Assembly: GCF_006475605.1 (NCBI RefSeq)
Contig: NZ_SSBC01000010.1
Coordinates: 248,001-312,000 of the forward strand
DNA: 64,000 nucleotides
Source of the DNA: Asticcacaulis tiandongensis
Lineage (GTDB): Bacteria > Pseudomonadota > Alphaproteobacteria > Caulobacterales > Caulobacteraceae
Direction: 5' to 3'
This document shows, in pieces, positions 13,708 to 62,219 of this stretch. Numbering within the stretch: position 1 is the stretch's first letter; the number at the start of each line of letters is the position of its first letter. A program made the position numbers and the translations under genes. A model generated the notes under the pieces. It saw only the letters and a list, made by a program, of their open reading frames with translations. It ran no database searches and had not been told where the DNA came from.

Positions 13708-13764
13708 TACCCCTCCGACGGCTTCGCCGCCACCTCCCCATCGTTACACGATAGGGAGGAGGGG
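13708..13764 (+). repeat. Double-hairpin intergenic repeat, copy A
   Basis: It starts TACCCCTCCG. Hairpin 1 is CGGC-TTCG-CCG. A CCACCTCCCC linker leads to hairpin 2, in which CCTCCC-ATCGT pairs with ACGAT-GGGAGG. The arrangement of a C-rich strand, a small hairpin and a longer C/G hairpin is shared with nine other sites in the window. It lies between gatA and the next plus-strand gene, with no ORF I would accept. Confidence 0.75.
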
Positions 13765-13859
13765 CTGTGATCACCTGAGCCATAATACCGCCTCAGGAGA
13801 ATGTCTTTAGTTTTCGGCGTGAAGTGCGTAAACTGAGGCTTCCTCTGGTAAGGTGACAT

Positions 13860-14219
13860 ATGCTGGTAAGTGTTCAGGACATGATCGGATGGGGGCTTCT
13901 GGTTCTGCCCCTGATTGTGCTTGCGTGGGCGGGTAGCGTCTATATCGAGACGACGCTTGAGCGCAGACGCCACGAACGCTACCAGCGGTTTTACCAGATC
14001 ATGCGTGACCTGAGCCGTGAAGACGCCAGTCAGGCCGATAAGATGGCGGCGGCCTATGAACTGCGTCACTATCGTGAATATCGCGATGTCATTGCGCGTA
14101 TTTTTGATGACGGCAAGCTTCGTCCCGAAGACGAAGGCCTGATTGCCGATCAGCTTAAGGACTCGGCCCGCGCCGTCGGTTTGCGGCCTGACAAAAAAGC
14201 TTCATCGCGCCATAAGTGA
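13860..14219 (+). CDS. Membrane-anchored small protein of unknown function
   Basis: The 119-residue protein has one N-terminal membrane helix (about 9-29, MIGWGLLVLPLIVLAWAGSV). A charged, probably helical cytoplasmic part follows (ETTLERRRHERYQRFY...). It ends in a basic tail (KKASSRHK). The GGTAAGGTG sequence before the ATG may serve as ribosome site. The gene lies on the plus strand, 42 bases before the MATE exporter gene, and could share its transcript. I do not recognise the family. Confidence 0.65.
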   Translation: MLVSVQDMIGWGLLVLPLIVLAWAGSVYIETTLERRRHERYQRFYQIMRDLSREDASQADKMAAAYELRHYREYRDVIARIFDDGKLRPEDEGLIADQLKDSARAVGLRPDKKASSRHK

Positions 14220-14261
14220 TCACAGATAGACCTTTGGGCCGGACTGAGGTACAGGGCGCAC

Positions 14262-15620
14262 ATGTCCGTATCTGTGCCCCTTGCCTCGACCTATGGTTCT
14301 GCCTTCCGTGCGCTGTTCACCCTAGCCTGGCCGGTGGTGATTGCGCGTTTTGGCATCATGCTGATGGGCCTGATGGATACGGTGATTGTCGGTCACTATA
14401 GCTCGGTTGAGCTTGGGTTTCATTCGATGGCCTGGGCACCGACCAGTGTATTTCTGGTGACGTCCATCGGGCTTCTGGTGGGACTTCAGGTCAAGACCTC
14501 ACACTATCTGGGGGCAGGGGAAACCCACCGTATCGGGGCGGTGTTCCGGCGCGGCATGGGCTATGCGCTGGGTTTGGGTGTTGGCTCAATGGTTCTGATG
14601 ATGTTGTTTGCGCCGCCGCTTTTCCGTGCCAGCGTCACCGAAACCCTTGCGGCGGGTGCGACCGTGCCGCTGATGATCTTTGCCCTGTCCATGCCCTTCT
14701 ATATGGTGTCTATAGGCTGCTCAGAGTTCCTTGAAGCCCTTGGGCGCACGCGTCAGAGCATGTTCATCATGATGGGGGCCAATGTCGTCAATGTCGCGCT
14801 GCTGTTTCTGCTGGTGCCGGGTCATATTGAACCGATACATGGCGCTGTGGGGGCGGCCATAGCCACCCTGATTGCGCGGGCCATGATGATGGTCGCCATG
14901 TTGATCTATGTCGCCCGCCTGCCTCAGGCGCGTGAATATGGTATTTTCAAAAAACATCCTGCCGATAAACCTGCGGCGGTCGATCAGCGCCGGATTGGTT
15001 ACGCGGCAGGGGCGTCTTATTTCATCGAGGTCGGGGCCTTTGCGGCCATGACCTTCTTTGCCGGTCGTCTGGGGGAGGTCGAGGTAGCGCAGTGGGCGAT
15101 TGTGCTCAATTTTGCCGGACTGGTGTTCATGGTGCCGATGGGCGTAGCCGTGGGCTGTTCGGTGCTGGTCGGACGGGCCTTTGGGGCGCGTGATCCTCAG
15201 GCTATCAGGATGATGGGACGCGTGAGCTTTATGACCGCAGCGGCCTTTATGATCATGGTGACCTTAGGGGTGGTGATCGGGGCAGGGGCACTGGCGCGGT
15301 TCTATACCGATGATGTGGCGCTCATTGCGGGGGTTCAGGCGGCGCTCTTGCTGTCGTGTCTGTTTTTCCTGCCGGATGGGCTTCAGGTTGTGGCGGCTCA
15401 GGCGCTTCGGGCGCGTAAGGATGTCGTCATGCCGACCGTCATCCATTACATTTCCTACGGCCTGATCATGATGCCGCTGGGGTGGCTGTTTGCCATAACC
15501 TTTAAGCACGGTGTGCCCGGCCTGATCTATGCGGTGATTGTCGCCAGCCTGATGTCTGGCACCTTCCTCGTCGGGCGGTTTTTCTGGCTTGATAAGCGTC
15601 CGATCAAGGCGGTCATATAA
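14262..15620 (+). CDS. MATE family multidrug/sodium antiporter
   Basis: The 452-residue inner-membrane protein has about twelve helices in two pseudo-symmetric halves. The first half has LAWPVVIARFGIMLMGLMDTVIVGHYSS, with the polar residues typical of MATE helix 1, and an elbow SIGLLVGLQVKTSHYLGAGE. The second half repeats the pattern (VPMGVAVGCSVLVGRAFGARD). MATE proteins use a sodium or proton gradient to export cationic drugs and metabolites. The substrate is unknown. Its 3' end overlaps the convergent ynfA-like gene by eight bases. Confidence 0.92.
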   Translation: MSVSVPLASTYGSAFRALFTLAWPVVIARFGIMLMGLMDTVIVGHYSSVELGFHSMAWAPTSVFLVTSIGLLVGLQVKTSHYLGAGETHRIGAVFRRGMGYALGLGVGSMVLMMLFAPPLFRASVTETLAAGATVPLMIFALSMPFYMVSIGCSEFLEALGRTRQSMFIMMGANVVNVALLFLLVPGHIEPIHGAVGAAIATLIARAMMMVAMLIYVARLPQAREYGIFKKHPADKPAAVDQRRIGYAAGASYFIEVGAFAAMTFFAGRLGEVEVAQWAIVLNFAGLVFMVPMGVAVGCSVLVGRAFGARDPQAIRMMGRVSFMTAAAFMIMVTLGVVIGAGALARFYTDDVALIAGVQAALLLSCLFFLPDGLQVVAAQALRARKDVVMPTVIHYISYGLIMMPLGWLFAITFKHGVPGLIYAVIVASLMSGTFLVGRFFWLDKRPIKAVI

Positions 15621-15942
15621 CGGCGCGGGGTGCCCACAGGATAACACCCGCGCCAATCAAGCACAGTAACAACCCACCCATATCCCAGGTATCGGGGCGC
15701 TGCTTTTCGACCAGCCACATCCATGTAATGGAGGCGGCAATATAGATGGCCCCATAGGCGGCATAGGTCCGGCCCGCCGTATCTGTATCGGTCAGCGTCA
15801 GCAAATAAGCGAACAGCATCAAAAAGATCGCCGCCGGTATCAGCCACAGCGGCGTCTTTTGCAGCCTGAGGATCATATAGACGCTATAGCAGCCCGCAAT
15901 TTCGCTTAAGGCCGCCAGCACATATATGATCAGGGTTTTCAT
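15613..15942 (-). CDS. YnfA family small membrane protein (UPF0060)
   Basis: The 109-residue protein has four predicted helices and the family hallmarks ALSEIAGCYSVYMILR near the N-terminus and GRTYAAYGAIYIAASITWMW in the third quarter. YnfA is an SMR-like small inner-membrane family tied to drug tolerance in some bacteria. The name is based on sequence pattern only. The stop overlaps the MATE gene and its start overlaps the stop of the upstream 301-residue gene by four bases. Confidence 0.9.
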   Translation of the reverse strand: MKTLIIYVLAALSEIAGCYSVYMILRLQKTPLWLIPAAIFLMLFAYLLTLTDTDTAGRTYAAYGAIYIAASITWMWLVEKQRPDTWDMGGLLLCLIGAGVILWAPRAVI

Positions 15943-16844
15943 AGACCGAGTATCCAGCCTTCTTCGGTCTGAACCGTATTCAGGTCGGCTTCTGACAGGG
16001 CTTTGGGGGCCGCAAACAGAGCCCCAAGCTCACCCTTGTCGTCGCGTTCGGCAAAGGCCGTGGCGGTCAGGCGTACCTGAGTGGCGTCCTTGACCTCAAG
16101 CGGTTCGGGCGTGCCTGAGAACATCGGCGGATGTACCTCGGCGATGACTGTATTGATGCCCTCAAGTGCGGCGTCATTCAATGCGCCAAAGCCGGTTTCA
16201 AATGGCCAGATTTTCGCCTTGTCGCCAAGTGTATCCTTGATAGCCTTAACGGCGGGAAGGCCTAAGAAGGTTTGTCCGCCCGCGACACCGGCCCCGTGCA
16301 TCTGCCACAGGCTCCTGGCCTGTGCCAGTTTGGGCAGGTGGTGGGTGGCTTCATCCGTCAGGCGCAGTTCGGGGAAGTTGCCGAAACTGTCGGGCTTAAG
16401 CGTCGAGAGCCATTTCTGGGCCTGTGACTTGGGCGCGCCCCAGAACGGCCAGGCCTCATCGGTCGTCAGGCGGTTGAATTTGGCCGCAACGGCAAAGCGG
16501 TTGTTGGTATTGTCCGCCTTATCGACAATATTTTTCAGCACGAAATCGCGCATGGCTTCCCAAGGGGTGCCTTCGAGTTTCAGGGCTGAGGCGGTGCCGC
16601 GCGGGAAGCCCAGCGCAAAGGTAAAGCCCAGGAAAATGCGGTCACCGCGCTTATGCAGGTCGGCAAGGATCGTTTTCAGAAGGGTGACGGCCTCGGCACG
16701 CGTGGCCGGATTATGCGCCTCATAGGTCAGGCGGAAACGAACATCGCGTTTGGCCACACCAATCCAAACGGAGGACTCGCCGGTTTTCTTACCTTCGGCG
16801 GCACTCCAGTCAACAATCACATAGGCTCCGAACAAGCGGGACAC
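15939..16844 (-). CDS. Conserved alphaproteobacterial protein, possibly RNase H-like fold, function unknown
   Basis: This soluble 301-residue protein begins AYVIVDWSAAEGKKTGESSVWIGVA, an acidic beta-strand pattern (VDWS) reminiscent of RNase H-like/DUF429-type proteins. It continues with FLGFTFALGFPRG and a distal IAEVHPPMF segment. Homologues in alphaproteobacteria are often labelled as cobalamin or molybdopterin synthesis proteins without good evidence, and I would not use those names. It overlaps the YnfA gene start by four bases, suggesting joint transcription. Confidence 0.7.
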   Translation of the reverse strand: MSRLFGAYVIVDWSAAEGKKTGESSVWIGVAKRDVRFRLTYEAHNPATRAEAVTLLKTILADLHKRGDRIFLGFTFALGFPRGTASALKLEGTPWEAMRDFVLKNIVDKADNTNNRFAVAAKFNRLTTDEAWPFWGAPKSQAQKWLSTLKPDSFGNFPELRLTDEATHHLPKLAQARSLWQMHGAGVAGGQTFLGLPAVKAIKDTLGDKAKIWPFETGFGALNDAALEGINTVIAEVHPPMFSGTPEPLEVKDATQVRLTATAFAERDDKGELGALFAAPKALSEADLNTVQTEEGWILGL

Positions 16845-17020
16845 AGCGCACAGGCTCCAGTCTGAGTTAGAATAATCCGGCGCGGTTGTATCCCGAAACC
16901 ATGCGCTGTTTAAAGCCCGTTTATGGATAAGCGCCGGTTTTTATCAATTTCTGTTTTAAAGTTTTTGGGAAAGCTGTGTAAAACGGCTCACGGTAATCAG
17001 ACCCGACTCATGAGGACGAT

Positions 17021-17965
17021 ATGACAAAGGTGTTGCGCGCAGGTGTTGCAGGCGCTGGGGTATTTGGCGGCTATCATGCCAACAAGTATAAACAGGCTGA
17101 CGCCATAACCTTCGTGGGCATCTATGATCTTGATACCGCCCGCGCCGAAACAGCGGCGGCAAATGTCGGCACGCAAGCCTTTTCCGGGGATCAGTGGGGC
17201 GAATTTGTTTCGCAGATCGATGTACTGACCGTAGCGGTTCCGGCCTTTGCACATGCCGGCGTGGTGCTTAAGGCGCTTGAGGCGGGCGTCCATGTCTATG
17301 TCGAGAAGCCGTTGGCCATAAGCCTTGAGGACGGTCAGGCCATGGTCGCTCTGGCGGCGGAAAAGGGACTCGTTCTGGCTTGTGGCCATCAGGAGCGGGC
17401 GGTGTTTGAAGCCATGGGCCTTTATGATGTGCCTGAGCGTCCGATCCGCCTTGAGGCGGTACGAAATGGCACGGCCTCGACGCGTAATCTCGATGTGTCG
17501 GTGGGGCTTGATCTGATGATCCATGATCTTGATCTGGGCCTTACACTGGCGGGCAGGCAGGCAGAGGCGGTGACCGCCACCGCGCGCTACCGTCAGGACG
17601 AAGGTTATAAGGCCGTGGGGGCGGATGAACTTAAGGCTGAGGTCGAATTTGGCGATGGTTTTAGTGCCAGCTTCTCAGCCTCACGCATGGCCGAAGCGCG
17701 CGAACGCACGATGAAGCTTATTTACCCGTCCGGTGAAGTGTTCATCGATATGCTCAACCGCAAATTCGAAAACCACACGCCGTTTGCGCTTAATCCGGAT
17801 TTTGCTGAGGCTGATATTGCCCGTGATCCGCTGGGTACCAGTGTCGGGCGTTTCCTGAGCGCTGTGCGGGGTGAGGGCGGGCGTCCGCTGGCCGGTGGCG
17901 ATGAGGCGCTTCTGGCGCTGGAGCTGGCGTTAATGGTGGATGCGGCGGTGGCGCCTCAGGGCTGA
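17021..17965 (+). CDS. Gfo/Idh/MocA family oxidoreductase
   Basis: The 314-residue protein has an N-terminal Rossmann domain (AGVAGAGVFGGYHANKY) and the family EKP motif in VHVYVEKPLAIS. A C-terminal alpha/beta domain carries the substrate-site helix LDLMIHDLDLGLTLAG. It probably oxidises or reduces a sugar or cyclitol with NAD(P), but the substrate cannot be told and no sugar genes adjoin it. The last ten bases overlap the convergent small membrane gene. Confidence 0.88.
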   Translation: MTKVLRAGVAGAGVFGGYHANKYKQADAITFVGIYDLDTARAETAAANVGTQAFSGDQWGEFVSQIDVLTVAVPAFAHAGVVLKALEAGVHVYVEKPLAISLEDGQAMVALAAEKGLVLACGHQERAVFEAMGLYDVPERPIRLEAVRNGTASTRNLDVSVGLDLMIHDLDLGLTLAGRQAEAVTATARYRQDEGYKAVGADELKAEVEFGDGFSASFSASRMAEARERTMKLIYPSGEVFIDMLNRKFENHTPFALNPDFAEADIARDPLGTSVGRFLSAVRGEGGRPLAGGDEALLALELALMVDAAVAPQG

Positions 17966-18165
17966 TCCCTGAGGATGAGGCTCAGGCTCAGGATTCCATA
18001 GCCCACACCCATCAGCGGATATTTGTAATGGGTCATGACATCGACCGCCGTCGCATCAAACAGGCGGAAGTGGCCGATCAGACTGGCCATAACCAGTGCT
18101 GCCGATATGAAAAACAGCAATAAGGTTTCAGCTGTCGGTTTCATGTGCCCCCAATGCCCGATCAC
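17956..18165 (-). CDS. Small two-helix membrane protein, function unknown
   Basis: The 69-residue frame encodes two hydrophobic segments (LLLFFISAALVMASLIG and YPLMGVGYGILSLSLIL) separated by a short polar loop. The start is uncertain. A GTG at 18165 has GGGAG upstream, while an ATG at 18144 (MKPTAETLL) has GGGGG. The gene converges on and overlaps the oxidoreductase by ten bases. I do not recognise a family. The membrane pattern argues for a real but unassigned gene. Confidence 0.5.
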   Translation of the reverse strand: MIGHWGHMKPTAETLLLFFISAALVMASLIGHFRLFDATAVDVMTHYKYPLMGVGYGILSLSLILRDQP

Positions 18166-18267
18166 ACCTGTCCGCTCCCGCCAGCGGTGGTCTGAATTAT
18201 TCAGACTGTGGGGATAATTTCAACGGTTACTTTCAGGCAAGCCTGTGCCTCAGGCAAAAAAATGCGC

Positions 18268-18954
18268 TTAAAGCGCCTGACGCAAGAACAGAAGTTCATG
18301 CAAGGTCACTAAAACGGCGAAAAGCGACGTCCCGACCAGCAGTCTGAGGAGCCCCAGTTCGAGAAATTCAAACCGCGTGCGGCCCTGTATTATGGCAACA
18401 AAGGGCAGGAAAGACGTGTGTTTCAGGATGGTGCGATAGTGATCGCCCAAACGGTCTTCGCGGCGCAGGTCGAGATTGTAGGACCCGAGATAGCTCAGAG
18501 CCAGAACGGTGCCGAAAAAGACCCATGACGCCAGATTGCCATTACAGATCATATGCATGAAAGCCAGCAGGCTCAGGCCCGCCAGAACCGGATGACGGGT
18601 CACACGGATAATGCCGCTGATGGGCTTGTCCGGCTGTACGGCATTGGCTTTCAGGCGCACGGGCGACGGGCTTAAGGTGCCGACCACAATAAGTTGTATG
18701 GCCAGGAAATTAACCAGCAGGGCGACGATCTTAAGCCAGTAGGGCGCGTGCCAAAGCTGGGCATTCAGCGGGTCACCCATGGCACCAAAATAGGCAAAAA
18801 ATATCCAGATCAGGCCAAACAATGAGGCCAGACCATAGAGCGCAAAATAGGCAGGGGCGCTTATGCGGGCGATGATCCGTGCCTTGACGGATGTACCGGC
18901 CACAAACAGATGCAGAAACAGAAAGAAAGCGCAGGCTAAAGCCAGTAAAAGCAT
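18268..18954 (-). CDS. NnrU family membrane protein
   Basis: The 228-residue protein has about six membrane helices. The N-terminal LALACAFFLFLHLFVAGTSVKAR and the conserved cytoplasmic stretch GIIRVTRHPVLAGLSLLAFMHM are typical of NnrU/NnuR and related methyltransferase-like membrane proteins. NnrU was named for a link with nitric oxide metabolism, but the biochemical role is unsettled and no denitrification genes are nearby. Seven bases separate it from the next minus-strand gene upstream, so they may share a transcript. Confidence 0.8.
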   Translation of the reverse strand: MLLLALACAFFLFLHLFVAGTSVKARIIARISAPAYFALYGLASLFGLIWIFFAYFGAMGDPLNAQLWHAPYWLKIVALLVNFLAIQLIVVGTLSPSPVRLKANAVQPDKPISGIIRVTRHPVLAGLSLLAFMHMICNGNLASWVFFGTVLALSYLGSYNLDLRREDRLGDHYRTILKHTSFLPFVAIIQGRTRFEFLELGLLRLLVGTSLFAVLVTLHELLFLRQAL

Positions 18955-18961
18955 GGGAAAC

Positions 18962-19645: not shown

Positions 19646-19714
19646 CTGACAATTCCCCCCATCACAAGTGCAGCCTTATCTTAACCATAAATGCAGGAAA
19701 GAGTTAAGGGGAAT

Positions 19715-20287: not shown

Positions 20288-20342
20288 CCGTACTCAAATG
20301 CCTTGAAAAAGATATGCTTAATCAAACCTTACGGCGCGGGTG

Positions 20343-21140: not shown

Positions 21141-21149
21141 GAAGCGGAC

Positions 21150-21476: not shown

Positions 21477-21598
21477 GCAGGCAATATAATCCATGAGCGC
21501 GCAGGTTTTTAGAGGGGAATCGGCTTATTTTTAAATCAAATGCAAATATTGCGGTATAGCCGCCTTCAATACCCTGTCACCTGAGCCGTTTTCGATCC

Positions 21599-25177: not shown

Positions 25178-25185
25178 TATGTGCA

Positions 25186-25246
25186 GGCATACGCCCAATA
25201 AAAAACCCTCCGGCAGAACCGGAGGGTTTTTTATTGGGCGTATGCC
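25186..25246. terminator. Bidirectional terminator with a 28-bp perfect stem
   Basis: GGCATACGCCCAATAAAAAA-CCCTCCGG pairs perfectly over 28 bases (25186-25213 with 25219-25246) around the loop CAGAA. The central GC-rich stem CCCTCCGG is flanked by A6 and T6 tracts, so it can stop transcripts from purK (plus) and from atpF (minus, stop at 25249). The outer ten base pairs beyond the A/T tracts are longer than termination needs. Confidence 0.9.
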
Positions 25247-25248
25247 TG

Positions 25249-35618: not shown

Positions 35619-36894
<1,276 letters not shown>

Positions 36895-36920
36895 GTTTTG
36901 TTCTTTTGGCTAAGGAAGGA

Positions 36921-36980
36921 TACCCCTCCGCCTGGCCTCTGGCCAGCCACCTCCCCATGCTGACGCATAGGGAGGAGAGG
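36921..36980 (+). repeat. Double-hairpin intergenic repeat, copy B
   Basis: TACCCCTCCG is followed by hairpin 1, CTGGCC-TCT-GGCCAG, then CCACCTCCCC. Hairpin 2 pairs CCTCCCCATGC with GCATAGGGAGG. It is closest to copy A in flanks but has a different hairpin-1 stem. It lies between ccrM and rnhB. Confidence 0.75.
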
Positions 36981-37024
36981 TGAGCGGGAGATGTCAGAAG
37001 TCCCGCACCTCGGGTCTAACGGGT

Positions 37025-37043
37025 GCAGGGTCCGCGACCCTGC
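37025..37043. repeat. Short perfect hairpin between repeat copies B and C
   Basis: GCAGGGTC-CGC-GACCCTGC gives an eight-base perfect stem with a three-base loop immediately before repeat copy C. It may be part of a compound element or a terminator after rnhB, although no T-run follows on the minus strand. Confidence 0.5.
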
Positions 37044-37103
37044 TGCCCCTCTGTCACAGCTTCGCTGTGACATCTCCCCCATCTCTGATGGGGGAGTATG
37101 AAG
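37044..37103 (+). repeat. Double-hairpin intergenic repeat, copy C, overlapping the rnhB 3' end
   Basis: GCCCCTCT is followed by hairpin 1, GTCACAGC-TTC-GCTGTGAC, then ATCTCCCCC. Hairpin 2 pairs CTCCCCCATC with GATGGGGGAG, and the copy ends GTATGAAG. The minus-strand reading supplies the last residues of RNase HII (SYSPIRDGGDVTAKL) and its stop codon. Confidence 0.8.
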
Positions 37104-37695
37104 GGGCTAGGACGTTTTTAACCGTCGCCCATGACATGCGGTGGATGGGCGAGGGGCCGTGGAGGCGGATGGCTTCGATGTGCGCGGCCGCCTGATAACC
37201 CTTATGCTTTTTGAAACCATAGACCGGATAATGGATATCCATGTCGATCATGATGCGGTCGCGGGCGGTTTTCGCCAGAATAGACGCGGCGGCAATCGAC
37301 AGGGATTTGTCATCCCCCTTGACGATGGCATGGGCCGGTATCGACATGGGCGGGCATTTGTTGCCATCGATCAGGGCATGGGCGGCGTTAAGCGACAGGG
37401 TTTCCACCGCGCGTGACATGCCGGACATGGTGGCGGCAAAGATATTCATGCGGTCGATGTCGGCGGGGGATATTTCCACGACCGACCAGGCCAGAGCGCT
37501 TTGTTTGATCAGCGGTTCAAGGGCAAAGCGCTGTTTTTCCGTCAATTTTTTGGAATCGCCTATACCTTCGGGCAGGTTGTCGCGGTCGAGTATAACTGCG
37601 GCGACGCACAGGGGGCCGGCGCAGGGGCCGCGACCGGCCTCATCTACGCCGCATATAGGGCCGATCAAAGCGGATTCAATCGAAAAATCAGGCAT
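37054..37695 (-). CDS. rnhB: Ribonuclease HII
   Basis: RNase HII nicks DNA at misincorporated ribonucleotides. The 213-residue protein has GVDEAGRGPCAGPLCVAAVIL with the first Asp-Glu pair, then DSKKLTEKQR, ALIDGNKCP and VKGDDKSLSIAAASILAKTARDRIM. The last 14 residues or so, from SYSPIRDGGDVT, are encoded by repeat copy C rather than by ancestral coding sequence. An almost identical tail is found on MidA. It lies upstream of ccrM on the same strand, but the ~320-base gap holds repeats and the ccrM promoter. Confidence 0.96.
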   Translation of the reverse strand: MPDFSIESALIGPICGVDEAGRGPCAGPLCVAAVILDRDNLPEGIGDSKKLTEKQRFALEPLIKQSALAWSVVEISPADIDRMNIFAATMSGMSRAVETLSLNAAHALIDGNKCPPMSIPAHAIVKGDDKSLSIAAASILAKTARDRIMIDMDIHYPVYGFKKHKGYQAAAHIEAIRLHGPSPIHRMSWATVKNVLAPSYSPIRDGGDVTAKL

Positions 37696-38984: not shown

Positions 38985-39071
38985 TTGACAAATGAAACCC
39001 TTGGGACAATTGAAACCTTGGGACAATTGAAACCCTTGGGGCAATTGAAACGCTTGGGACAATTGAAACCC
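38985..39071. repeat. 18-base tandem repeat upstream of a DUF805 gene
   Basis: Four units of TTGGGACAATTGAAACCC (17, 18, 18 and 18 bases, differing at one or two positions) start at 39001. A degenerate unit precedes them at 38985-39000. Each unit contains the palindrome CAATTG and the short inverted pair TTG...CAA. The array ends about 50 bases from the ATG of the minus-strand DUF805 gene, in its probable promoter or leader. Confidence 0.85.
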
Positions 39072-39084
39072 TGAGAGGCTGCAA

Positions 39085-39150
39085 TGCCCCTTCCGTCTTT
39101 TTTGCTAACGCAAAAAATCCACATTCCCCGTAAACAAGGAAGGATTGGTG
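39085..39150 (+). repeat. Double-hairpin intergenic repeat, copy I (divergent)
   Basis: TGCCCCTTCCG is followed by hairpin 1, TTTTTTGC-TAAC-GCAAAAAA, then TCCACATTCCCCGTAAAC and AAGGAAGG. Layout matches the other copies but the second hairpin is weak (TTCC/GGAA). It shares the core TTCCCCGTAAAC with copy J. It lies between ygfZ and the DUF805 pair. Confidence 0.55.
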
Positions 39151-39978: not shown

Positions 39979-40003
39979 GAGATGCTCAGTCAGAAAGGAA
40001 GAA

Positions 40004-40059
40004 GCCCCACCACCCCCGCTGCGCGGCGGTCCCCCCATCACAGATGGGGAGGCATGAGG
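40004..40059 (+). repeat. Double-hairpin intergenic repeat, copy D
   Basis: GCCCCACCACCCC is followed by hairpin 1, CCGC-TGC-GCGG, then CGGTCCCC. Hairpin 2 pairs CCCCATC with GATGGGG, and the copy ends AGGCATGAGG. Flanks match copy F. It lies between the divergent ygfZ and pyrC starts, so it may sit within their promoters. Confidence 0.7.
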
Positions 40060-40165: not shown

Positions 40166-41494
40166 ATGCCCGCGACCTATGATCTGATTATCAAAAATGC
40201 CGACATCATCAATCACGCCGGACGGGGGGCGGGCGACATTGGTATTCGTGACGGGAAGTTTGCTGCTTTCGGCGATCTGTCTCAGGCGTCGGCGGCGGAG
40301 GTGTTTGATGCTTCGGGGCTGCTGGCCATGCCGGGGGTCATCGATACGCAGGTGCATTTCCGTGAACCGGGCCTTGAGTGGAAGGAAGACCTCGAGACCG
40401 GATCGCAGGCGGCGGTATTAGGTGGCGTTGTGGCCGTGTTTGAAATGCCCAACACCAATCCGAACACCACAGATGTGGCGAATTTCGAGGACAAGATCAA
40501 ACGCGCCCGTCACCGGATGCATTGTGACCATGCCTTTTATGTCGGCGGGACGCATGAAAATGTGACGCAACTGGGCGAGCTTGAGCGTTTGCCCGGCTGT
40601 TGCGGCGTCAAGGTGTTTATGGGGGCCTCAACGGGGACGCTTCTGATCGCCGATGACGAGGGCGTGTTTAACGTTCTGAAGAACGTGCGGCGTCGGGCGA
40701 CCTTCCATTCGGAAGACGAATATCGTCTGGCGGAGCGTCGGGCTTTGGCGCGTGAAGGGGACTGGACGAGCCACGACTTTGTGCGCGATGCCCAGTCAGC
40801 CATTCAATCGACGCATCGTCTGGTCAAGCTGGCGCGTGAGGCCGGTAAGCGTATTCACGTCCTGCATGTGACGACGGCTGAGGAAATCGAATTTCTGGCG
40901 CAGAACAAGGATATTGCCACGGTGGAAATCACGCCGCAGCATCTGACGCTGGTGGCACCTGAGGCCTATCAGCGCCTGAAGGGCTATGCGCAGATGAACC
41001 CGCCTATCCGTGACCAGTATCATGTCGATGGTCTGTGGCACGGGATCAATGGCGGTATTGCGGATGTGCTGGGGTCTGACCATGCGCCGCATACGATTGA
41101 GGAAAAATCCAAACCCTATCCGGCGTCGCCTTCGGGGATGCCGGGGGTGCAGACCCTGTTGCCGGTGATGCTGACTCATGTGGCGGCGGGGCGCATGTCG
41201 CTGGAGCGGCTTGTGGATCTGACGTCCGCAGGGGCGCAGCGTGTATTTGGTGTGGCGGGCAAGGGGCGCATGGCCGAGGGCTATGATGCCGATATCACTC
41301 TGGTTGATCTGAAAGAAAAGCGGGTCATTACCCATGCGCAGCAGCGGTCGCGTTGTGGCTGGACGCCGTTTGATGGCTTTGAGGCTCACGGCTGGCCCAA
41401 GGCGACGATCGTGCGCGGCAAGGTGGTCATGCGTGACGATGAGATTGTACTGCCGTCACAGGGTGAGGCCTGTCGTTTTCAGGAAACGCTTTAG
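40166..41494 (+). CDS. pyrC: Dihydroorotase (probable catalytic copy, QxH variant)
   Basis: Dihydroorotase cyclises carbamoyl-aspartate to dihydroorotate. The 442-residue amidohydrolase keeps the likely carboxylated lysine K149 (GVKVFMGASTG), H181 (FHSEDEY), H234 (HVLHVTTAEE) and D305 (GSDHAPH). The first metal motif reads Q62-V-H64 in DTQVHFREPG instead of HxH. I recall the QVHFREPG form in other proteobacterial dihydroorotases, so it may be active with altered metal binding. It is unlinked to pyrB. AllB-like allantoinase or hydantoinase is a less likely alternative. Confidence 0.87.
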   Translation: MPATYDLIIKNADIINHAGRGAGDIGIRDGKFAAFGDLSQASAAEVFDASGLLAMPGVIDTQVHFREPGLEWKEDLETGSQAAVLGGVVAVFEMPNTNPNTTDVANFEDKIKRARHRMHCDHAFYVGGTHENVTQLGELERLPGCCGVKVFMGASTGTLLIADDEGVFNVLKNVRRRATFHSEDEYRLAERRALAREGDWTSHDFVRDAQSAIQSTHRLVKLAREAGKRIHVLHVTTAEEIEFLAQNKDIATVEITPQHLTLVAPEAYQRLKGYAQMNPPIRDQYHVDGLWHGINGGIADVLGSDHAPHTIEEKSKPYPASPSGMPGVQTLLPVMLTHVAAGRMSLERLVDLTSAGAQRVFGVAGKGRMAEGYDADITLVDLKEKRVITHAQQRSRCGWTPFDGFEAHGWPKATIVRGKVVMRDDEIVLPSQGEACRFQETL

Positions 41495-41498
41495 ACAC

Positions 41499-41563
41499 GT
41501 TCCTTCTTCCGACAGCGCAGCCTCAGGGCTGGCCTGCCACCTTCCCCGTAAACGGGGCCGGAT
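41499..41563 (+). repeat. Double-hairpin intergenic repeat, copy J (divergent)
   Basis: GTTCCTTCTTCCG is followed by a hairpin CAGCC-TCA-GGGCTG region. CCACCTTCCCCGTAAACGGGG follows, with CCCCGT-AA-ACGGGG as the second hairpin. It shares TTCCCCGTAAAC with copy I and the overall layout with the rest. It is directly after the pyrC stop. Confidence 0.5.
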
Positions 41564-44602: not shown

Positions 44603-45138
44603 TGGACAGGGAACCCGACATATCGGCGCTTTGGGCCGAGGCAGAGCGGTTCCCTGATAAAACCTATCCGGTAGATAAGTGGAACCCGACCCTGTGTGGG
44701 GAAATGGATGTGCTGATCCAAAAGGATGGCACCTGGTTGCATGAAGGCCGTCCGATTGCACGTGCGGAGATCGTGCGGTTGTTTGCCAAGCTGTTGCGTT
44801 ACGAGGACCGGGGCTATTTCCTTGTGACGCCGGTTGAGAAGCTGCGGATCACCGTCGAGGATCTGCCGTTTCGTATTGTGGACAGGGACGGGCTGACCTT
44901 TGTCAGCGATCAGGGGGTGCGGCTGCCTCTGGGGGAGGCGCATCCGTTGATGATCGATGTACTCGGCGATGAATGGTTGCCGCGCCTGCGGGTCAGAGGC
45001 GATCTCTGGGCGCGGATGACGCGGGCGGAAACCTATCGGTTATTTGATGCCGTGCAGATTGAGACGGGCGAGGGCTGTGTGTGGCTGACGCTTGAGGGGC
45101 AAAGGTTTGAGGTGCCTTTGTGTGAGGGCGGTAAGTAA
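44602..45138 (+). CDS. DUF1285 protein
   Basis: The 178-residue soluble protein matches the DUF1285 pattern: WNPTLCGEMDVLIQKDGTWLHEGRPIAR, then LLRYEDRGYFLVTPVEKLRI and VEDLPF. The family is common in proteobacteria and has no established function. It overlaps the GNAT gene by one base and precedes the CCA-adding enzyme, from which repeat copy E separates it. Confidence 0.88.
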   Translation: MDREPDISALWAEAERFPDKTYPVDKWNPTLCGEMDVLIQKDGTWLHEGRPIARAEIVRLFAKLLRYEDRGYFLVTPVEKLRITVEDLPFRIVDRDGLTFVSDQGVRLPLGEAHPLMIDVLGDEWLPRLRVRGDLWARMTRAETYRLFDAVQIETGEGCVWLTLEGQRFEVPLCEGGK

Positions 45139-45140
45139 GA

Positions 45141-45200
45141 TACCCCCTCTGTCGCGGCTCCGCAGCGACATCTCCCCCTGCAAGCCGGGGGAGTATGAAG
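45141..45200 (+). repeat. Double-hairpin intergenic repeat, copy E
   Basis: TACCCCCTCT is followed by hairpin 1, GTCGCGG-CTC-CGCAGCGAC (one mismatch), then ATCTCCCCC. Hairpin 2 is CTCCCCC-TGCAAGCC-GGGGGAG, and the copy ends TATGAAG. Flanks match copies C, G and H, but the hairpin-1 stem differs with compensating bases. Confidence 0.8.
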
Positions 45201-47200: not shown

Positions 47201-47264
47201 AAACCCCACCACCCCTTTGCTTGCGCAAAGCGGTCCCCCTCCCCATCAGAGATGGGGAGGTATT
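47201..47264 (+). repeat. Double-hairpin intergenic repeat, copy F
   Basis: AACCCCACCACCCC is followed by hairpin 1, CTTTGC-TTGC-GCAAAG, then CGGTCCCC. Hairpin 2 pairs CCTCCCCATC with GATGGGGAGG. Flanks match copy D. It fills the gap between the converging amidotransferase and bestrophin genes. Confidence 0.8.
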
Positions 47265-48174: not shown

Positions 48175-48208
48175 CAGGTGTTTCCGGAAGTGGCGACAAA
48201 AAGGAAGA

Positions 48209-48262
48209 TACCCCCTCTGTCACTTCGTGACATCTCCCCCCGCGTAGCTAGGGGAGTATGAA
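48209..48262 (+). repeat. Double-hairpin intergenic repeat, copy G
   Basis: TACCCCCTCT is followed by hairpin 1, GTCAC-TTC-GTGAC, then ATCTCCCCC. Hairpin 2 is CTCCCC...GGGGAG with a divergent loop (CGCGTAGCTA), and the copy ends TATGAATG. It lies between bestrophin and hemF and matches copy H closely at the 5' half. Confidence 0.8.
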
Positions 48263-52591: not shown

Positions 52592-52621
52592 GGTGCAGGC
52601 CTGAGGGTCTGATTGAGATGT

Positions 52622-52654: not shown

Positions 52655-52702
52655 GTTAGGGTGTCGCAATCCTGACGCTTTTAACGCCTATGGGGGCCGC
52701 AA

Positions 52703-53245: not shown

Positions 53246-53317
53246 GTCTGGCTTGTCTATCGAAAAATTATAAAGGCCTGATAGTATTGGCCTGTTGGCT
53301 ATGACGCCCGATTCACA

Positions 53318-55339: not shown

Positions 55340-55387
55340 GTAGGGTAGCTTCGTTATATTCGCTCAGCATCGCAGGAAGGGGGGCGG

Positions 55388-56014: not shown

Positions 56015-56028
56015 TGAGCTTCAAATAA

Positions 56029-57141: not shown

Positions 57142-57211
57142 GATAATCCGGTGGTGTCTGTAAAAAGGAATTGGCGCGTGGCTAACATGCCAGACGGGTT
57201 TTGACCAGAGA

Positions 57212-57826
57212 CTATGGTTGAGGGTTGGCCTGTTTCGGGTCGAGTTTGGGAGCGGGGGCCAGACGCATCACCTCGGTCTGGTATTTTTCCGTTTCACCGG
57301 CCAGTAGCAGCGGCAGGGCGGATACGGCGGCGTCATTCAGGCGTTCAACCCATGTGTCAGCCTTATAGAAGTCTGACAGCACCCAGCTATGTACCAGTTC
57401 TTTCTGGCCGGGGTGGCCGATGCCCATACGCGCACGGACGAAGTTGGGGCCTAGGTGGCTCATGATCGAGCGCAGGCCATTGTGACCGGCATGCCCGCCA
57501 CCGAGTTTCATACGCAGGCGACCGGGGGCGAGATCAAGCTCGTCATGATAGACGATGATGTGGTCGGGATCGATCTTGTAGAAGGCAGCGGCTTCCTTCA
57601 CGGCATTGCCGGACAGGTTCATATAGGTCTGGGGCTTGAGGGCGAGAGCCTTTACGGGGCCTTTGGCGGTTTGCACCGTGCCTTCGGACATGACCGACTG
57701 GAACTTGTTACGCTCAGGGCCGAAGCCTGAGGAACGGATCAACTCGTCGATGAACATGAAGCCGATATTGTGCCTGTTTTTGGCATATTGCCCACCGGGA
57801 TTACCCAGGCCCACGATCAGATACAT
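57212..57826 (-). CDS. pth: Peptidyl-tRNA hydrolase
   Basis: Pth releases peptides from prematurely dropped peptidyl-tRNAs. The 204-residue protein has VGLGNPGGQYAKNRHNIGF with the catalytic His about position 19, then LKPQTYMNLSGNAV, IVYHDELDLAPGRLRMKLGGGHAGHNGLRS and RARMGIGHPG. rplY is upstream with a terminator between, and ychF is downstream. Confidence 0.96.
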   Translation of the reverse strand: MYLIVGLGNPGGQYAKNRHNIGFMFIDELIRSSGFGPERNKFQSVMSEGTVQTAKGPVKALALKPQTYMNLSGNAVKEAAAFYKIDPDHIIVYHDELDLAPGRLRMKLGGGHAGHNGLRSIMSHLGPNFVRARMGIGHPGQKELVHSWVLSDFYKADTWVERLNDAAVSALPLLLAGETEKYQTEVMRLAPAPKLDPKQANPQP

Positions 57827-57843
57827 ATCGAACCCTCAGATAC

Positions 57844-57882
57844 AAAAAGACCCTGTCCCTTTGGCAGGAACAGGGTCTTTTT
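57844..57882 (-). terminator. Hairpin terminator between rplY and pth
   Basis: AAAAAGACCCTGT and ACAGGGTCTTTTT pair over 13 bases with a CC/GG extension and a TTTGGCA loop. It would end the rplY transcript on the minus strand and is nearly symmetric. Confidence 0.85.
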
Positions 57883-57900
57883 GCAATGTTTTTGAAAGCC

Positions 57901-58497
57901 TTAGGCTTCAGCTTCGCCTTCGGCAGGCTCCTCAGCAGCAGCAACGCCGGTGATCGAAGCCACAACCACGTCACCTGCCTGAGTGGCGGCGGCGTCTGAA
58001 GGCAGCTTCAGGTCGCTGATGTGAACGCTCTGGCCGATTTCGAGACCGGTCAGGTCAACCACGATATCCTCAGGGATGTGGCCAGCCGGAACCTGAACTT
58101 CAACTTCGTGCAGAGCAATGTTCAGGGCGCCGCCCTTTTTCAGGCCGGGAGAGGCTTCGTTGTTCTTGAAGTGCACCGGCACATTGATCTTGATCGACTG
58201 GTTTTCTTCGACGCGGTACAGGTCGAAGTGCAGGGGCACGTCGGTGACCGGATGGAAGTCAATCGCCTTGGCGATGGCTTTCTCGGTTCCCTTGGTGTGC
58301 TTAACGGTCACGAGGTGACCGTTAAGGCGACCGGTAAAGAGGGCCTTTTTGAACTCATTGAGCTTGACCGCAATGGCCACAGGCTCCTTGTTGCCACCGT
58401 ACAGTACGCCGGGGACCTTACCTGCATTGCGGGTCTCACGGGCGCCACCGGTACCGGTACGCTCACGAACTTCTACGTCTAAAACGATATCGGCCAT
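57901..58497 (-). CDS. rplY: Ribosomal protein bL25, long Ctc-type
   Basis: bL25 binds 5S rRNA. The 198-residue protein is the two-domain Ctc form, with N-terminal RERTGTGGARETRNAGKVPGVLYG and C-terminal TL5 domain (GLKKGGALNIALHEVEVQVPAGHIPEDIVVDLTGLEIG). The ATG at 58497 has AGGA upstream. The acidic tail (AAEEPAEGEAEA) is typical. It is read before pth. Confidence 0.94.
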   Translation of the reverse strand: MADIVLDVEVRERTGTGGARETRNAGKVPGVLYGGNKEPVAIAVKLNEFKKALFTGRLNGHLVTVKHTKGTEKAIAKAIDFHPVTDVPLHFDLYRVEENQSIKINVPVHFKNNEASPGLKKGGALNIALHEVEVQVPAGHIPEDIVVDLTGLEIGQSVHISDLKLPSDAAATQAGDVVVASITGVAAAEEPAEGEAEA

Positions 58498-58672
58498 CAG
58501 CCATTTCCTCAAACAAAACGCGCCGCCGTCGTCATGACATAACGCCCGACAACCGCAGCGTGGGAATATCCCGTAAATCTCAAGAGGCGCGTAGATACAC
58601 ATAATATGCGTAGAACGCAACCATTTGCGGCGCTTAAAACCTGTCTTTATGCCTTTGTCCAGAGGCAATGAT

Positions 58673-58701
58673 AAAAAAAGCGGCCCGTCAGGGCCGCTTT
58701 T
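58673..58701 (-). terminator. Hairpin terminator after the lipoprotein gene
   Basis: AAAAAAAGCGGCCC and GGGCCGCTTTT pair around GTCA; on the minus strand seven T residues follow the stem, seven bases after the lipoprotein stop codon. Confidence 0.85.
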
Positions 58702-58707
58702 GGCAGG

Positions 58708-59943
58708 TTATTTCTTCTTTTTGGCCGCTGTCTTTCTGGCCGCCGGTTTTGCCGGTTGTATATAGGGCTTGGCGTTGGCGTATTTCATCGCCTCGGTGCC
58801 ATCGGCATTCAGGGCCACCTGACGCTTGGGGGAGAGGTCCAGCGCATTGGAAGACAGTTCGCCGATACAGTTGCCCGTATCCATCAGAATGTGCTGTCCG
58901 ACACAGAAGACATCATCAAAATGGAAGCGCGAGGCCGCCAGACACTGGTTGAGGTTCAGCTTTGATTCGTTAAGGCAGCGCGAGGAATGGCCGTCATTCA
59001 GCATGGCCTGAATGGCTTCTTCGTTAGCGCCTGTGCCTTCACCGAGAATGGAGAGGGCGGCAATGGCCAGTGAGCGGTTTACACCGGCCGTATAGGGCGT
59101 GGTAAACAGGTCTTCGCGGGCAAAGGCACCGGGGGTGGCTGCCGTGGTAACCAGTTGATCTGCGACAGGTGCCGGAGTGGTGGCGGTGCCTGCGTCATAG
59201 GCCGAGGCTTCGGCGCTTAAGGCACCAGTTGAGGCGTAGGTTTTCAGGCCCTGACCCGACAGGGCCGAAGCCATAAGGTGGGCACTTTCGTCTGCAAAGA
59301 CGCTTTGTTTGGTTGATGAGGCTAGTTTGGTGGCTGCCAGACGCTCGGCAGGGCCAGTGACAACGCCCTTGGCCCATTTTTCTTTCTGGATGGAATAGGC
59401 CGCCTGTTTGAACTCGGCACCTTTCTTGTAGATGGCTTCGCCGTCAGACGACAGGGCCAGAATGACGCGGCGGGCGGCGATATTGGCACCGGGGATCGAG
59501 GCCGCGTAAGACGGGTCGCGGATCAGGCGATCAACCATCTCACGACGGGTGGCTTCATCGGAGGCGTAGCCGCGCAGCTGTGAGCGGAAAGCCGGTTCCT
59601 GCATGGCGACAATGGCCCCATAGGCCACCGCACCTGTGGCCATCTGGGTGGGTTCGTAGCTGGCCCCTTCCTGAAGACGGGTGGCTACCGCCTGACCATC
59701 GGCAAGGCCCGAACCCATATTGCGGGCCAGATTGACATAGGTGACATAGATCGAAGCCGCATCAGACACATGCGGCGACAGGGACACCGGTGGGCCAGCA
59801 GGCGCTGGAGGCGGCGGTGGCGGGGGAGGTGGCTCAACGGTTTTACAGGCCGCAACCATGGCCAGTGTCACAACACCGGCGCTTAAGCGTAACCAGAAGC
59901 GTTTCTTTGAGACGGGTTGCGATGCCCCGATAGCGAAATTCAT
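58708..59943 (-). CDS. Lipoprotein with poly-proline linker and lysine-rich tail, function unknown
   Basis: The 411-residue protein has a lipoprotein signal (TLAMVAACK, lipid Cys about C33). A proline run (nine in a row, about 38-46) and a long mostly helical Ala/Ser-rich region follow (VARNM, ATRLQEGASYEP... and SLAIAALSILGEG). A short four-cysteine part (SSRCLNESKLNLNQCLAASRFHFDDVFCVGQ...GNC) and a basic tail ending AARKTAAKKKK close the chain. The tail could bind peptidoglycan or acidic polymers, which is speculative. A perfect CtrA consensus box lies about 290 bases upstream. I do not recognise the family. Confidence 0.75.
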   Translation of the reverse strand: MNFAIGASQPVSKKRFWLRLSAGVVTLAMVAACKTVEPPPPPPPPPAPAGPPVSLSPHVSDAASIYVTYVNLARNMGSGLADGQAVATRLQEGASYEPTQMATGAVAYGAIVAMQEPAFRSQLRGYASDEATRREMVDRLIRDPSYAASIPGANIAARRVILALSSDGEAIYKKGAEFKQAAYSIQKEKWAKGVVTGPAERLAATKLASSTKQSVFADESAHLMASALSGQGLKTYASTGALSAEASAYDAGTATTPAPVADQLVTTAATPGAFAREDLFTTPYTAGVNRSLAIAALSILGEGTGANEEAIQAMLNDGHSSRCLNESKLNLNQCLAASRFHFDDVFCVGQHILMDTGNCIGELSSNALDLSPKRQVALNADGTEAMKYANAKPYIQPAKPAARKTAAKKKK

Positions 59944-60232
59944 AACCTATTACTCCCCTGTGGCCCTGGGCAGGTAAAACGATTTATTGACACTCTGTCA
60001 TCGGCACTCTGCCTTTGGGCAATCCCTGCGGGTAATTCAGCATATGCTGCGCCGAAAGGAATGAATTACAACCGCTGACAGAATACGATTCCCCAAATGA
60101 GAAAGAACCCAGACAAAAGCGCCAAAAGTATGACGTGGTGTCTGAGGGACTCAGGGGAGGAAAACGGAAATGCACACCCGAACCGCCTCATTTAACGGCG
60201 CGAATGTTACGGCCTTATGACGCGGTTTCAGG

Positions 60233-60248
60233 GTTAATATGACGTTAA
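60233..60248 (-). promoter_or_regulatory. Consensus CtrA box upstream of the lipoprotein gene
   Basis: On the minus strand the site reads TTAA-CGTCATA-TTAAC, an exact match to TTAA-N7-TTAAC. It lies in the 350-base gap 59944-60293 between prs and the lipoprotein gene. That gap also has GATTC and GACTC (GANTC) sites and no convincing gene. A promoter for the lipoprotein gene under cell cycle control is inferred. Confidence 0.6.
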
Positions 60249-60293
60249 GCAGATGTAAAAAGCCTGTAAGGATCAGGACCTGCTGCCACTCTT

Positions 60294-61229
60294 TTAGTCA
60301 AACAGCTTTGAGACCGACTCTTCGTTGGCGATACGGCGGATGGCCTCACCGATCAGCGGGGCAACGCTGACGATGCGGATCTTCGGGTGATTGCGGATTT
60401 TTTCCGGTACCTCGATGGAGTCGGTGATGACCAGTTCCTTGAGGACGGAGCTGTCGACGCGGTTGAGGGCTTCGCCCGACAGGACGCCGTGGCTGATATA
60501 GGCCGAAACGGATTTTGCACCACGATCGATCAACGCCTTGGCGGCATTGACCAGCGTGCCGCCGGAATCGACGATATCGTCGAACAGGATGCAGTCGCGG
60601 CCATCGACCTCACCGATGATGTTCATCACTTCGGATTCACCGGCCTTGGGGCGGCGCTTGTCGACAATGGCCAGATCGCCGCCGAGGCGGTCCGCCAGGG
60701 CGCGGGCGCGCACCACACCGCCGACATCGGGGGAAACGACCATGATGTCGCTTGATTTTTCGTAATTGTCCTTGATGTCACGCGCCATGAACGGGATGGC
60801 CACGAGATTATCGGTCGGAATATCGAAGAAGCCCTGAATCTGACCGGCGTGCAGGTCCATGGTCAGGACGCGGTGCGCACCGGCACGCGTGATCAGGTTG
60901 GCAACCAGCTTGGCCGAGATAGGGGTGCGACCACCGGTCTTGCGATCCTGACGGGCGTAGCCGAAATAGGGGATGACGGCGGTGATGCGTTTGGCCGAGG
61001 CGCGGGTCAGGGCGTCAATACAGATCAGCAGTTCCATCAGGTTGTCGTTGGCCGGATAGCTGGTCGACTGAATGACAAAGATGTCTTCGCCGCGCACGTT
61101 TTCGTCGATGGTGACGAAGATTTCATTATCGGCAAAGCGCTGAACGCGGGCCTTGGTCAGGGGGACATCGAGATATTTGCCAATGGCCTGAGACAAAGAG
61201 CGGTTGGAGTTTGCCGACAGAAGTTTCAT
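60294..61229 (-). CDS. prs: Ribose-phosphate pyrophosphokinase
   Basis: Prs makes PRPP from ribose 5-phosphate and ATP. The 311-residue protein has [25 protein letters not shown] (ATP and activation loop region), [18 protein letters not shown], the lysine loop [10 protein letters not shown], and the PRPP loop [16 protein letters not shown]. It feeds purine, pyrimidine, and tRNA-salvage reactions, including apt in this window. About 120 bases separate it from pgeF upstream. Confidence 0.97.
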
Positions 61230-61351
61230 GATATCAATTCCGGTGCGGAGCAGGTTTGGATTATTTCGGGGCTTTTAACAGGTGCGTCGACAGGGGCAAG
61301 GGCTTTGTCTCAAAAGTGTTAAAATATCCGTCGGGTGTGGTTTTGGTGAGT

Positions 61352-62134
61352 TTAACGCAAGGCGATCGCACTGATCAGGCGGCCATAGTCCGCTTCGCCC
61401 TGTTTGAAGGTGCGGCGGTTTGAGAAAAAGAGGTCGGCCTGCGCGCAGGTGTCGTGGCCGGTGGCGGCGATTTGCGTCAGACCGAGACGTTTCAGGCGCA
61501 TCAGGCAAAAGCCCGGCAGGTCGAACCAGCGTTTGTCAGGCGTGTCTCCCATCAGGAAAAACGCGCCGCTATCGGCGTCATTTTCAAGGAAGGTGGTCTC
61601 ATAGTCGGCTGAGACTTCGTAGGAGGCTTGTGCGATGCAGGGGCCAATGACCGCTCTGAGGTGGTCGTGCTGTGCGCCCTGAGCGATCAGGGCGTCGTAT
61701 TCGGCTTCGATCATGCCGTGAAGCGCCCCCTTCCAGCCTGCGTGACAGGCCCCGACGACGCCATTAACCGGATCTGCCCATAATATCGGCGCGCAATCGG
61801 CGGACAGTGCTCCGAGCACCAGACCGGAGGTGCGGGTCACCAGACCATCGGCTTCAGGTCGGGCATCGGTTACCCATGGGCCATCTACGGTCACGACACG
61901 GCTTGAATGTACCTGATAACAGGTCAGGAGGCGTTCAGGGGGCTGATCAAAGGCAGAGGCGATGCGGCGACGGTTTTCGGCGACGGCTTCGGGGGCGTCT
62001 TTGGAACCGGCTCCGGCATTGAGGCTGAGGTAGGGCGCTTCGGAGACGCCGCCCAGACGCGTGAAGAAACCGTGGGTGATTTCCGGCAGGTCAAGGAGCG
62101 GGTGCAGGATGCGCGGGGGCAGGGGGGCTGTCAT
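61352..62134 (-). CDS. pgeF: YfiH/PgeF family protein (purine nucleoside phosphorylase-like)
   Basis: The 260-residue protein has the conserved metal ligands of the multicopper-oxidase-like YfiH family: TCYQVHSSRV, GACHAGWKGALHGMIE and GPCIAQASYEV. PgeF edits wrong amino acids in the peptidoglycan stem or acts as purine nucleoside phosphorylase in others. The original 'polyphenol oxidase' name is probably wrong. It is downstream of midA, with repeat copy H in the gap. Confidence 0.9.
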   Translation of the reverse strand: MTAPLPPRILHPLLDLPEITHGFFTRLGGVSEAPYLSLNAGAGSKDAPEAVAENRRRIASAFDQPPERLLTCYQVHSSRVVTVDGPWVTDARPEADGLVTRTSGLVLGALSADCAPILWADPVNGVVGACHAGWKGALHGMIEAEYDALIAQGAQHDHLRAVIGPCIAQASYEVSADYETTFLENDADSGAFFLMGDTPDKRWFDLPGFCLMRLKRLGLTQIAATGHDTCAQADLFFSNRRTFKQGEADYGRLISAIALR

Positions 62135-62163
62135 GGGGCATTATGCCTTTTTAGTAAGTAAGA

Positions 62164-62219
62164 TTCCCCCTCTGTCACTTCGTGACATCTCCCCCATCAG
62201 AGATAGGGGAGTATGAAGA
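62164..62219 (+). repeat. Double-hairpin intergenic repeat, copy H, overlapping the midA 3' end
   Basis: ATTCCCCCTCT is followed by hairpin 1, GTCAC-TTC-GTGAC, then ATCTCCCCC. Hairpin 2 pairs CCCATC with GATaGGG, and the copy ends TATGAAGA. On the minus strand it encodes the last residues of MidA, SSYSPISDGGDVTK, and its stop. Flanks match copies C, E and G. Confidence 0.8.

Follow-up and report, generated by a model that had tools for sequence, protein, structure and literature searches.

What sets the direction of a repeat that reads the same way at ten sites of one stretch, whichever way the neighbouring genes run, and how would such a repeat spread? The question is raised by a window of 64,000 nucleotides in the draft genome of Asticcacaulis tiandongensis (3.22 Mb in 22 contigs), namely positions 248001-312000 of contig C10, in which ten sites carry a C-rich/G-rich double-hairpin element. 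An earlier interpretation of this stretch from its letters alone (the sequence-only reading) ascribed to these sites a common layout, four sub-types and a single, plus orientation. The common layout is borne out on reading all ten: a 5' arm rich in C is followed by a small hairpin (hairpin 1), then by another C-rich arm, with which the longer hairpin 2 starts, and by a G-rich end, about 60-80 nt in total. The single orientation holds within the window (10 of 10 copies on the plus strand) but fails genome-wide, where the copies occupy both strands and their direction tracks the sign of the local GC skew; a fixed plus orientation is therefore rejected.

The arm pattern CCCCTCYG-N4-34-CAYCTCCCC has six matches on the plus strand of the window (13708, 36921, 37044, 45141, 48209 and 62164), none on the minus strand and none across 100 dinucleotide shuffles of the window; in the whole draft genome it identifies 75 copies, and the reversed control none. 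A covariance model, R1, built from 17 genome copies including four from the window (37044, 45141, 48209 and 62164), recovers all ten window sites, every one on the plus strand, with scores outside the training set of 31.9 bits at 13708 and 30.6 bits at 36921, and weak ones (15.5-19.0 bits, E-values 0.005-0.034) at 39085, 40004, 41499 and 47201. The sites at 40004 and 47201 represent a sister type, D (CCCCACCACC..GGTCCCCC), of which the genome has 44 exact copies, and those at 39085 and 41499 are degenerate, their support being the weak R1 scores. On the minus strand of the window, R1 produces four weaker matches (11.1-22.7 bits) that overlap strong plus copies and hence are palindromes read backwards. 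Rfam has no match anywhere in the window. Genome-wide, R1 gives at least 103 matches at E-values up to 0.1, a lower bound as 150 of 1545 first-look candidates were scored; merged with the pattern matches, these make at least 110 copies and, with the 44 of type D added, at least 154 distinct copies, some low-scoring members of which may be false. The genome search with a covariance model that had been proposed as a check thus yields further copies, and the view of the repeats as a dispersed palindromic family, similar to repetitive extragenic palindromes (REPs) and apparently non-autonomous, stands. Of the 78 copies whose neighbours could be read, 47 are located between co-directional, 20 between convergent and 11 between divergent genes, and 13 of the 78 are centred inside an open reading frame (ORF) delineated by a simple ORF caller.

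That these copies are oriented by GC skew is well shown. Both orientations occur, but in long same-direction runs (17 changes in 148 neighbouring intervals; binomial p ~5e-23) and not in the random mixture that the sequence-only reading had named as its counter-case. Within the window, the skew is positive in 16 of 16 steps of 4 kb. Skew was sampled in 60 stretches of 20 kb, plus the window in four pieces, and each copy was assigned the nearest sample, which is up to ~21 kb off for 109 copies (one copy lacks a sample). In 139 of 153 copies, the strand of positive skew is the C-rich one; where |skew|>0.03 (a limit picked after the data had been seen), this holds for 132 of 139. Type D alone follows the skew in 41 of 44 cases, and in all 40 where the skew exceeds this limit. 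For the other types in strong-skew places, the regularity is best among the best-conserved copies: 49/50 at R1 scores of at least 50 bits, 22/25 at 30-50 bits and 15/18 below 30 bits, with 6/6 for the copies found by the pattern only. Exact copies in the strong-skew samples place the C-rich strand on the leading strand in ratios of 53:1 and 30:0. Positive GC skew marks the leading strand, and changes of its sign mark the origin or the terminus; the strand-bias check thus indicates that the orientation follows skew and hence probably replication polarity.

The skew changes from plus to minus once in C10 (~540 kb) and from minus to plus in C15 (~430 kb) and C16 (80-120 kb), presumably reflecting one terminus and two origins. 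Near-complete orientation across the genome is also what would be seen if the copies were functional, replichore-oriented sites kept in direction by selection. Signals of this kind, such as KOPS-like sites, are expected to be dense at the terminus. Yet no copies are found at ~351-626 kb of C10, a region that spans the presumed terminus, or at 347-485 kb of C15, around the presumed origin, and the orientation is absent in two relatives, G017 and G018; we consider a functional role of this type very improbable. The discordant copies are mostly weak, belong to inverted pairs or lie in weak-skew segments, and one copy of 66 bits (C17:211190) opposes a skew of 0.032. In some segments, the copies agree with one another. 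At 733-809 kb of C10, where the skew is -0.005 to -0.046, six of six copies oppose the arm, and so do two copies at 1096-1114 kb (skew -0.020 and -0.052), while at 14-49 kb of C15, with the skew within 0.007 of zero, five of five copies are on the plus strand. These segments of weak or intermediate skew are perhaps old inversions or acquired segments.

Transcription is rejected as the cause of the orientation: in the same stretches, genes of at least 150 codons are divided 496 leading to 463 lagging, and copies between co-directional genes lie on the same strand in 26 cases and on the opposite strand in 21. Replication could produce the bias in another way, if insertion were unbiased and copies that place their G-rich strand on the lagging-strand template were subsequently lost or counter-selected, due to a stalling hairpin, a G-quadruplex (G4) or a triplex. 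This is the main rival. RNA energies predict a more stable fold for the G-rich than for the C-rich strand in 10 of 10 window copies, and inverted pairs are rare in this genome and common in three relatives, as expected if strong structures are purged. However, outside the elements, in the strong-skew samples, runs of five or more C number 384 on the leading and 1324 on the lagging strand, and G4-type motifs 22 and 76, respectively, so that the lagging-strand template of this genome commonly carries G-rich sequence. These counts disfavour a general avoidance of such sequence and weaken the purging explanation, and the elements run counter to the composition of their own strand. Neither are the wrong-way copies enriched among the best-conserved, presumably young ones (1/50 versus 3/18; small numbers). 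Overall, purging appears unlikely.

The explanation we favour, with moderate confidence, is that the element is a REP-like non-autonomous repeat whose monomers enter the lagging-strand template at replication forks through an enzyme supplied in trans. The moving unit in this genome would be the monomer, taken up as a single strand at the fork, such that the C-rich strand ends on the leading-strand side, and the enzyme would be one other than a recognisable Y1/RAYT. Skew orientation, a monomer with a common 5' tract, tandem neighbours and the greatest regularity in the best-conserved copies all fit such an entry; from these we infer mobility, the single-strand route, the lagging-strand target and the trans-acting enzyme. 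IS200/IS605 elements are described, in excerpts of PMC5371812, as inserting into the lagging-strand template, with an orientation that recapitulates replication. According to the same excerpts, contact with the sliding clamp orients insertion in several insertion sequence (IS) families, which suggests a further route, namely a miniature inverted-repeat transposable element of a DDE or other transposase, oriented by the clamp. On reading the copies, no terminal inverted repeats are evident beyond a short GATAC..GTATG, nor is any target duplication, and no gene with matching ends is seen in the regions read, with Y1 being the only family searched genome-wide; this route seems improbable.

Several observations weigh against the fork-coupled interpretation. 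The Y1 profile (PF01797) yields no candidates in this genome, while 5 of 14 control genomes are positive, so that the best-known enzyme class for the lagging-template route is missing, and the RAYT-type partner that the sequence-only reading had proposed to look for finds no Y1/RAYT family match here. A Y1 protein may be too divergent for the profile or may have been lost after use. PF01797 is present in 4 of the 25 genus genomes (G010, G012, G020 and G022) but not in G008, the genome richest in first-pattern copies, and across the 25 shows no evident relation to copy number. The leading strand, moreover, is assigned through GC skew, without a mapped origin. Finally, no insertion event, near-relative empty site or target duplication has been established. 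The gap between the DUF1285 and polyA-polymerase genes, occupied by a copy in the window, is informative in 13 of 24 relatives, where a DUF1285 match lies upstream of the polymerase gene (the other 11 are uninformative). The element is absent from this gap in several relatives: 11 of the 13 have no R1 match there at E-values up to 1. The two relatives closest at this gap, G001 and G013, hold weak opposed matches (16.3 and 12.6 bits in G001, locus L129; 17.4 and 13.6 bits in G013, locus L128; E-values 0.02-0.28), perhaps a diverged dimer or another palindrome. The relatives are 53-62% identical in the polymerase, and exact element ends therefore cannot be read from them.

The genus set comprises 25 genomes including this one, with the first pattern in 24 and type D in 24. 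Orientation in relatives was analysed for G017, G018 and G020 with looser skew sampling than in the own genome (|skew|>0.02, with the sample as far as 150 kb from the copy). The complete genome G018 has 91 copies, arranged in 17 pairs with the 5' ends facing, 8 with the 3' ends facing, one tandem pair and 39 singles. A bias among singles is missing in two of these three relatives (13/28 testable singles in G018 and 13/23 in G017 follow the skew), another count against the fork-coupled interpretation; in G020, 25/32 do (p = 0.002), a weaker bias than in the own genome. Some of these singles are dimer halves with a diverged or type D partner, so any bias is diluted. Inverted pairs number 25 in G018, 17 in G017 and 10 in G020, and G001 has type D inverted dimers with a near-constant 45-nt spacer. 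Such dimers raise the possibility that monomers are leftovers, one half having been deleted depending on fork direction, and the opposed matches in the DUF1285/polyA-polymerase gap of G001 and G013 lend this a little support at the expense of fork-coupled entry. In types A, B and D, however, upstream conservation stops at approximately the same point and no partner half is visible, and the close pairs among the 154 copies of this genome are mostly tandem (8, versus 3 inverted), which deletion of dimer halves would not yield; on balance, this origin is quite unlikely. As a separate observation, G017 (C1:885251-903658), a genome without overall bias, carries seven exact-pattern copies that all point one way over 18 kb, at a strongly negative skew of -0.134. 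For G021, at least 59 of 96 copies were listed, and this genome stood outside the orientation analysis.

Of 133 genomes sampled evenly across the class, 8 contain a match, the own genome among them, and three of these 8 hold a single match that may be due to chance. Ten plasmid records of Sphingobium and Sphingomonas match a type D copy in part, each over less than 80% of its length. In G036, a genome of another family with 83 copies, an apparent long plus run was dropped, given an unlisted minus copy in L225 and both orientations in L229; a stretch of this genome (C1:300001-306000, L222) has 28% GC, against 64-68% in the others that were read. In 19 stretches of IMG/VR contigs whose hosts are not given (L231-L249), as many as 11 copies occur within 14 kb, most of them pointing one way, and 61/66 copies match the contig skew where |skew|>0.05. 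The genes of these contigs mostly run one way, which makes replication and transcription inseparable, and they were not used as evidence.

The hairpins themselves are supported by covariation. In the alignment A4, which was aligned by sequence from copies and a structure chosen by the analyst, 88.7% of the cells pair, versus 45-56% for slid partners, and 26 cells are changed on both sides, versus a shuffled mean of 6.6. For 84 matches from G017, G018 and G020 (34 loci given), in an alignment fitted to the model and hence leaning towards it, the pairing is 91.6%, versus 45-64% when slid, and the both-side changes number 142, versus a shuffled mean of 46.6. Two of the five pairing measures are unremarkable against shuffles: shuffles reach as many pairs with a change on both sides in 47/500 (A4) and 117/500 (84 matches) cases, and as many further pair types in 492/500 and 431/500. 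Hairpin 1 is hypervariable yet mostly paired, and the second C-rich arm forms the 5' side of hairpin 2. In the copy alignments, types A, B and D share a 5' tract that ends in AAGATA; types A and D end in TATGAA(G) and type B in GGAGAGA. The four sub-types of the sequence-only reading correspond to A, B, D and the degenerate pair, and a further type C, in which TGC precedes the arm and GGATG follows it, is frequent in other parts of the genome. The arms mirror each other: among the loose matches, CCCCTCC/CCTCCCC occurs 24 times and CCCCCTCC/CCTCCCCC 28 times, with few mixed. A third strand on hairpin 2 (triplex) would be in keeping with such a mirror, an observation only; by eye, the mirror fails at adjacent positions in some copies of types B and D, and it may reflect two ancestries.

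No transposase was identified beside the copies, in line with the sequence-only reading: Pfam names none among the 19 window proteins around them (two matched nothing), and these proteins are ordinary. By eye, no transposase was recognised between close copies at eight places of this genome, and no autonomous copy carrying one at these places or at two of G018; the genome-wide transposase search covered the Y1 family only. Two type D copies (C15:184169, L067, and C15:303122, L069) are interrupted at an identical point after GGTCCCCC by a ~1.1 kb IS with an IS110-family transposase (PF01548, PF02371). Insertion of IS elements at REPs is already known, as excerpts of PMC1525189 indicate. Together, the two interrupted copies offer a naturally occurring pair of target sites for a bridge-RNA recombinase.

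The closest known system appears to be the CGTC REPs, known to us through excerpts of the original description (Di Nocera et al., 2013, PMC3733652) and compared by text rather than consensus sequences. These are intergenic repeats near 3' ends, mostly in alphaproteobacteria including the CGTC-positive Caulobacter crescentus; they are mostly head-to-head dimers without an associated transposase, with one hairpin of 8-9 bp, a complementary AT that is almost invariable at stem positions 1 and 2, and the tag CGTC or TGTC/CCTC. The present family resembles them, as far as these excerpts go, in its intergenic or near-3' location, the apparent lack of an associated transposase and the dimers of G017 and G018; tag, tail, relatives' dimers and the apparently missing transposase are in part common to both. 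CGTC precedes hairpin 1 in 28/69 exact copies of this genome and 71/90 in relatives (TGTC in 9/69 and 1/90), and CCA follows it, as in CGTC REPs, in 35/69 and 49/90. Unlike them, type D lacks the CGTC tag, AT forms the first two stem bases in only 1/69 own and 7/90 relatives' copies, and the element combines two hairpins with long C-rich arms and, in this genome, monomers with replication orientation. Some of the family may already be on record as CGTC REPs.

The RAYT-mobilised REPINs and bacterial interspersed mosaic elements (BIMEs), as portrayed in excerpts of PMC3116915, PMC6006769 and PMC8266576, share with this family the inverted dimers seen in relatives, high copy number and IS110-family insertion at a fixed point, and differ in that here there is no RAYT match in the genome and the monomer is strand-biased. 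A GTAG foot next to the hairpin is not found: one of ten window copies (48209) contains GTAG, within the hairpin 2 loop, none contains CTAC, and the conserved tracts likewise lack a GTAG foot. Nor is the inverted dimer of REPINs the main unit in this genome, with 3 inverted against 8 tandem pairs. The family is not filed as RAYT-REP, REPIN or CGTC REP because these defining features were tested and not found. IS200/IS605 elements and their non-autonomous derivatives, in the excerpts of PMC5371812, likewise have hairpins on one strand and an orientation that follows replication, and the lagging-template orientation is seen here in 132/139 copies, assuming that positive skew marks the leading strand; unlike them, the present elements have no Y1 transposase match and no demonstrated cleavage sites or guide sequences. 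CIR repeats of Caulobacter and other alphaproteobacteria (Chen and Shapiro, 2003, as cited in excerpts of PMC2229807) are also two-armed and intergenic, ~110 bp long with a GANTC site, in contrast to the window copies, only one of which (62164) contains GANTC, in the tract before the first arm and outside the arms. The element works like a REP/IS200-type element. No description of this repeat family, or of such an orientation bias of REPs, was found in the open-access literature searched.

Within the window, all copies are on the plus strand. Two belong to type B and have the exact pattern: 13700..13762 (31.9 bits), with an amidase gene on one side and a small ORF on the other, and 36913..36978 (30.6 bits), upstream of a CcrM-like methylase gene. 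The latter forms a tandem pair with a type A copy at 37036..37100 (exact pattern, 58.0 bits, training copy) that enters the 3' end of the RNase HII gene; the two are flanked, at 35619-37695, by the methylase (N6_N4_Mtase and RAMA domains) and RNase HII genes. The other type A copies, all training copies with the exact pattern, are at 45134..45197 (64.3 bits), in the DUF1285/polyA-polymerase gap, at 48202..48260 (63.0 bits) and at 62157..62215 (66.9 bits), which enters the 3' end of a Methyltransf_28 gene. The type D copies at 39995..40056 (18.6 bits) and 47202..47263 (15.5 bits) have the exact type D pattern at contig positions 288005-288035 and 295204-295239, respectively, and the degenerate elements, both TTCC variants, are at 39078..39145 (19.0 bits, E-value 0.005) and 41494..41563 (16.0 bits, E-value 0.026). 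A motif like CACCTCGGG..CGGGTGCAGGG adjoins several copies in the same orientation (in the window at 37004-37031, and downstream of others). Directly 5' of the degenerate 39085 copy, within a DUF805 ORF, positions 38989-39076 contain about five tandem units of 17-18 nt like CAATTGAAACCCTTGGGA. Between two ORFs, at 25184-25248, there is a perfect 30-bp inverted repeat with a 5-nt loop that resembles a terminator.

Well in excess of 100 skew-oriented copies beside congeners with unoriented dimers offer a direct handle on how REPs without RAYT spread. It is possible, if tentative, that palindromic repeats are mobilised at forks without Y1 or RAYT, as monomeric, single-strand, lagging-template REPs spreading beside the dimers of sister species. 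The orientation bias points to a fork-coupled single-strand step, and comparison of monomer and dimer genomes could bring the enzyme to light. The direction of replication in the past may be recorded in the copies as well; if the fork-coupled interpretation is true, they would be fossil compasses of replication that mark old inversions.

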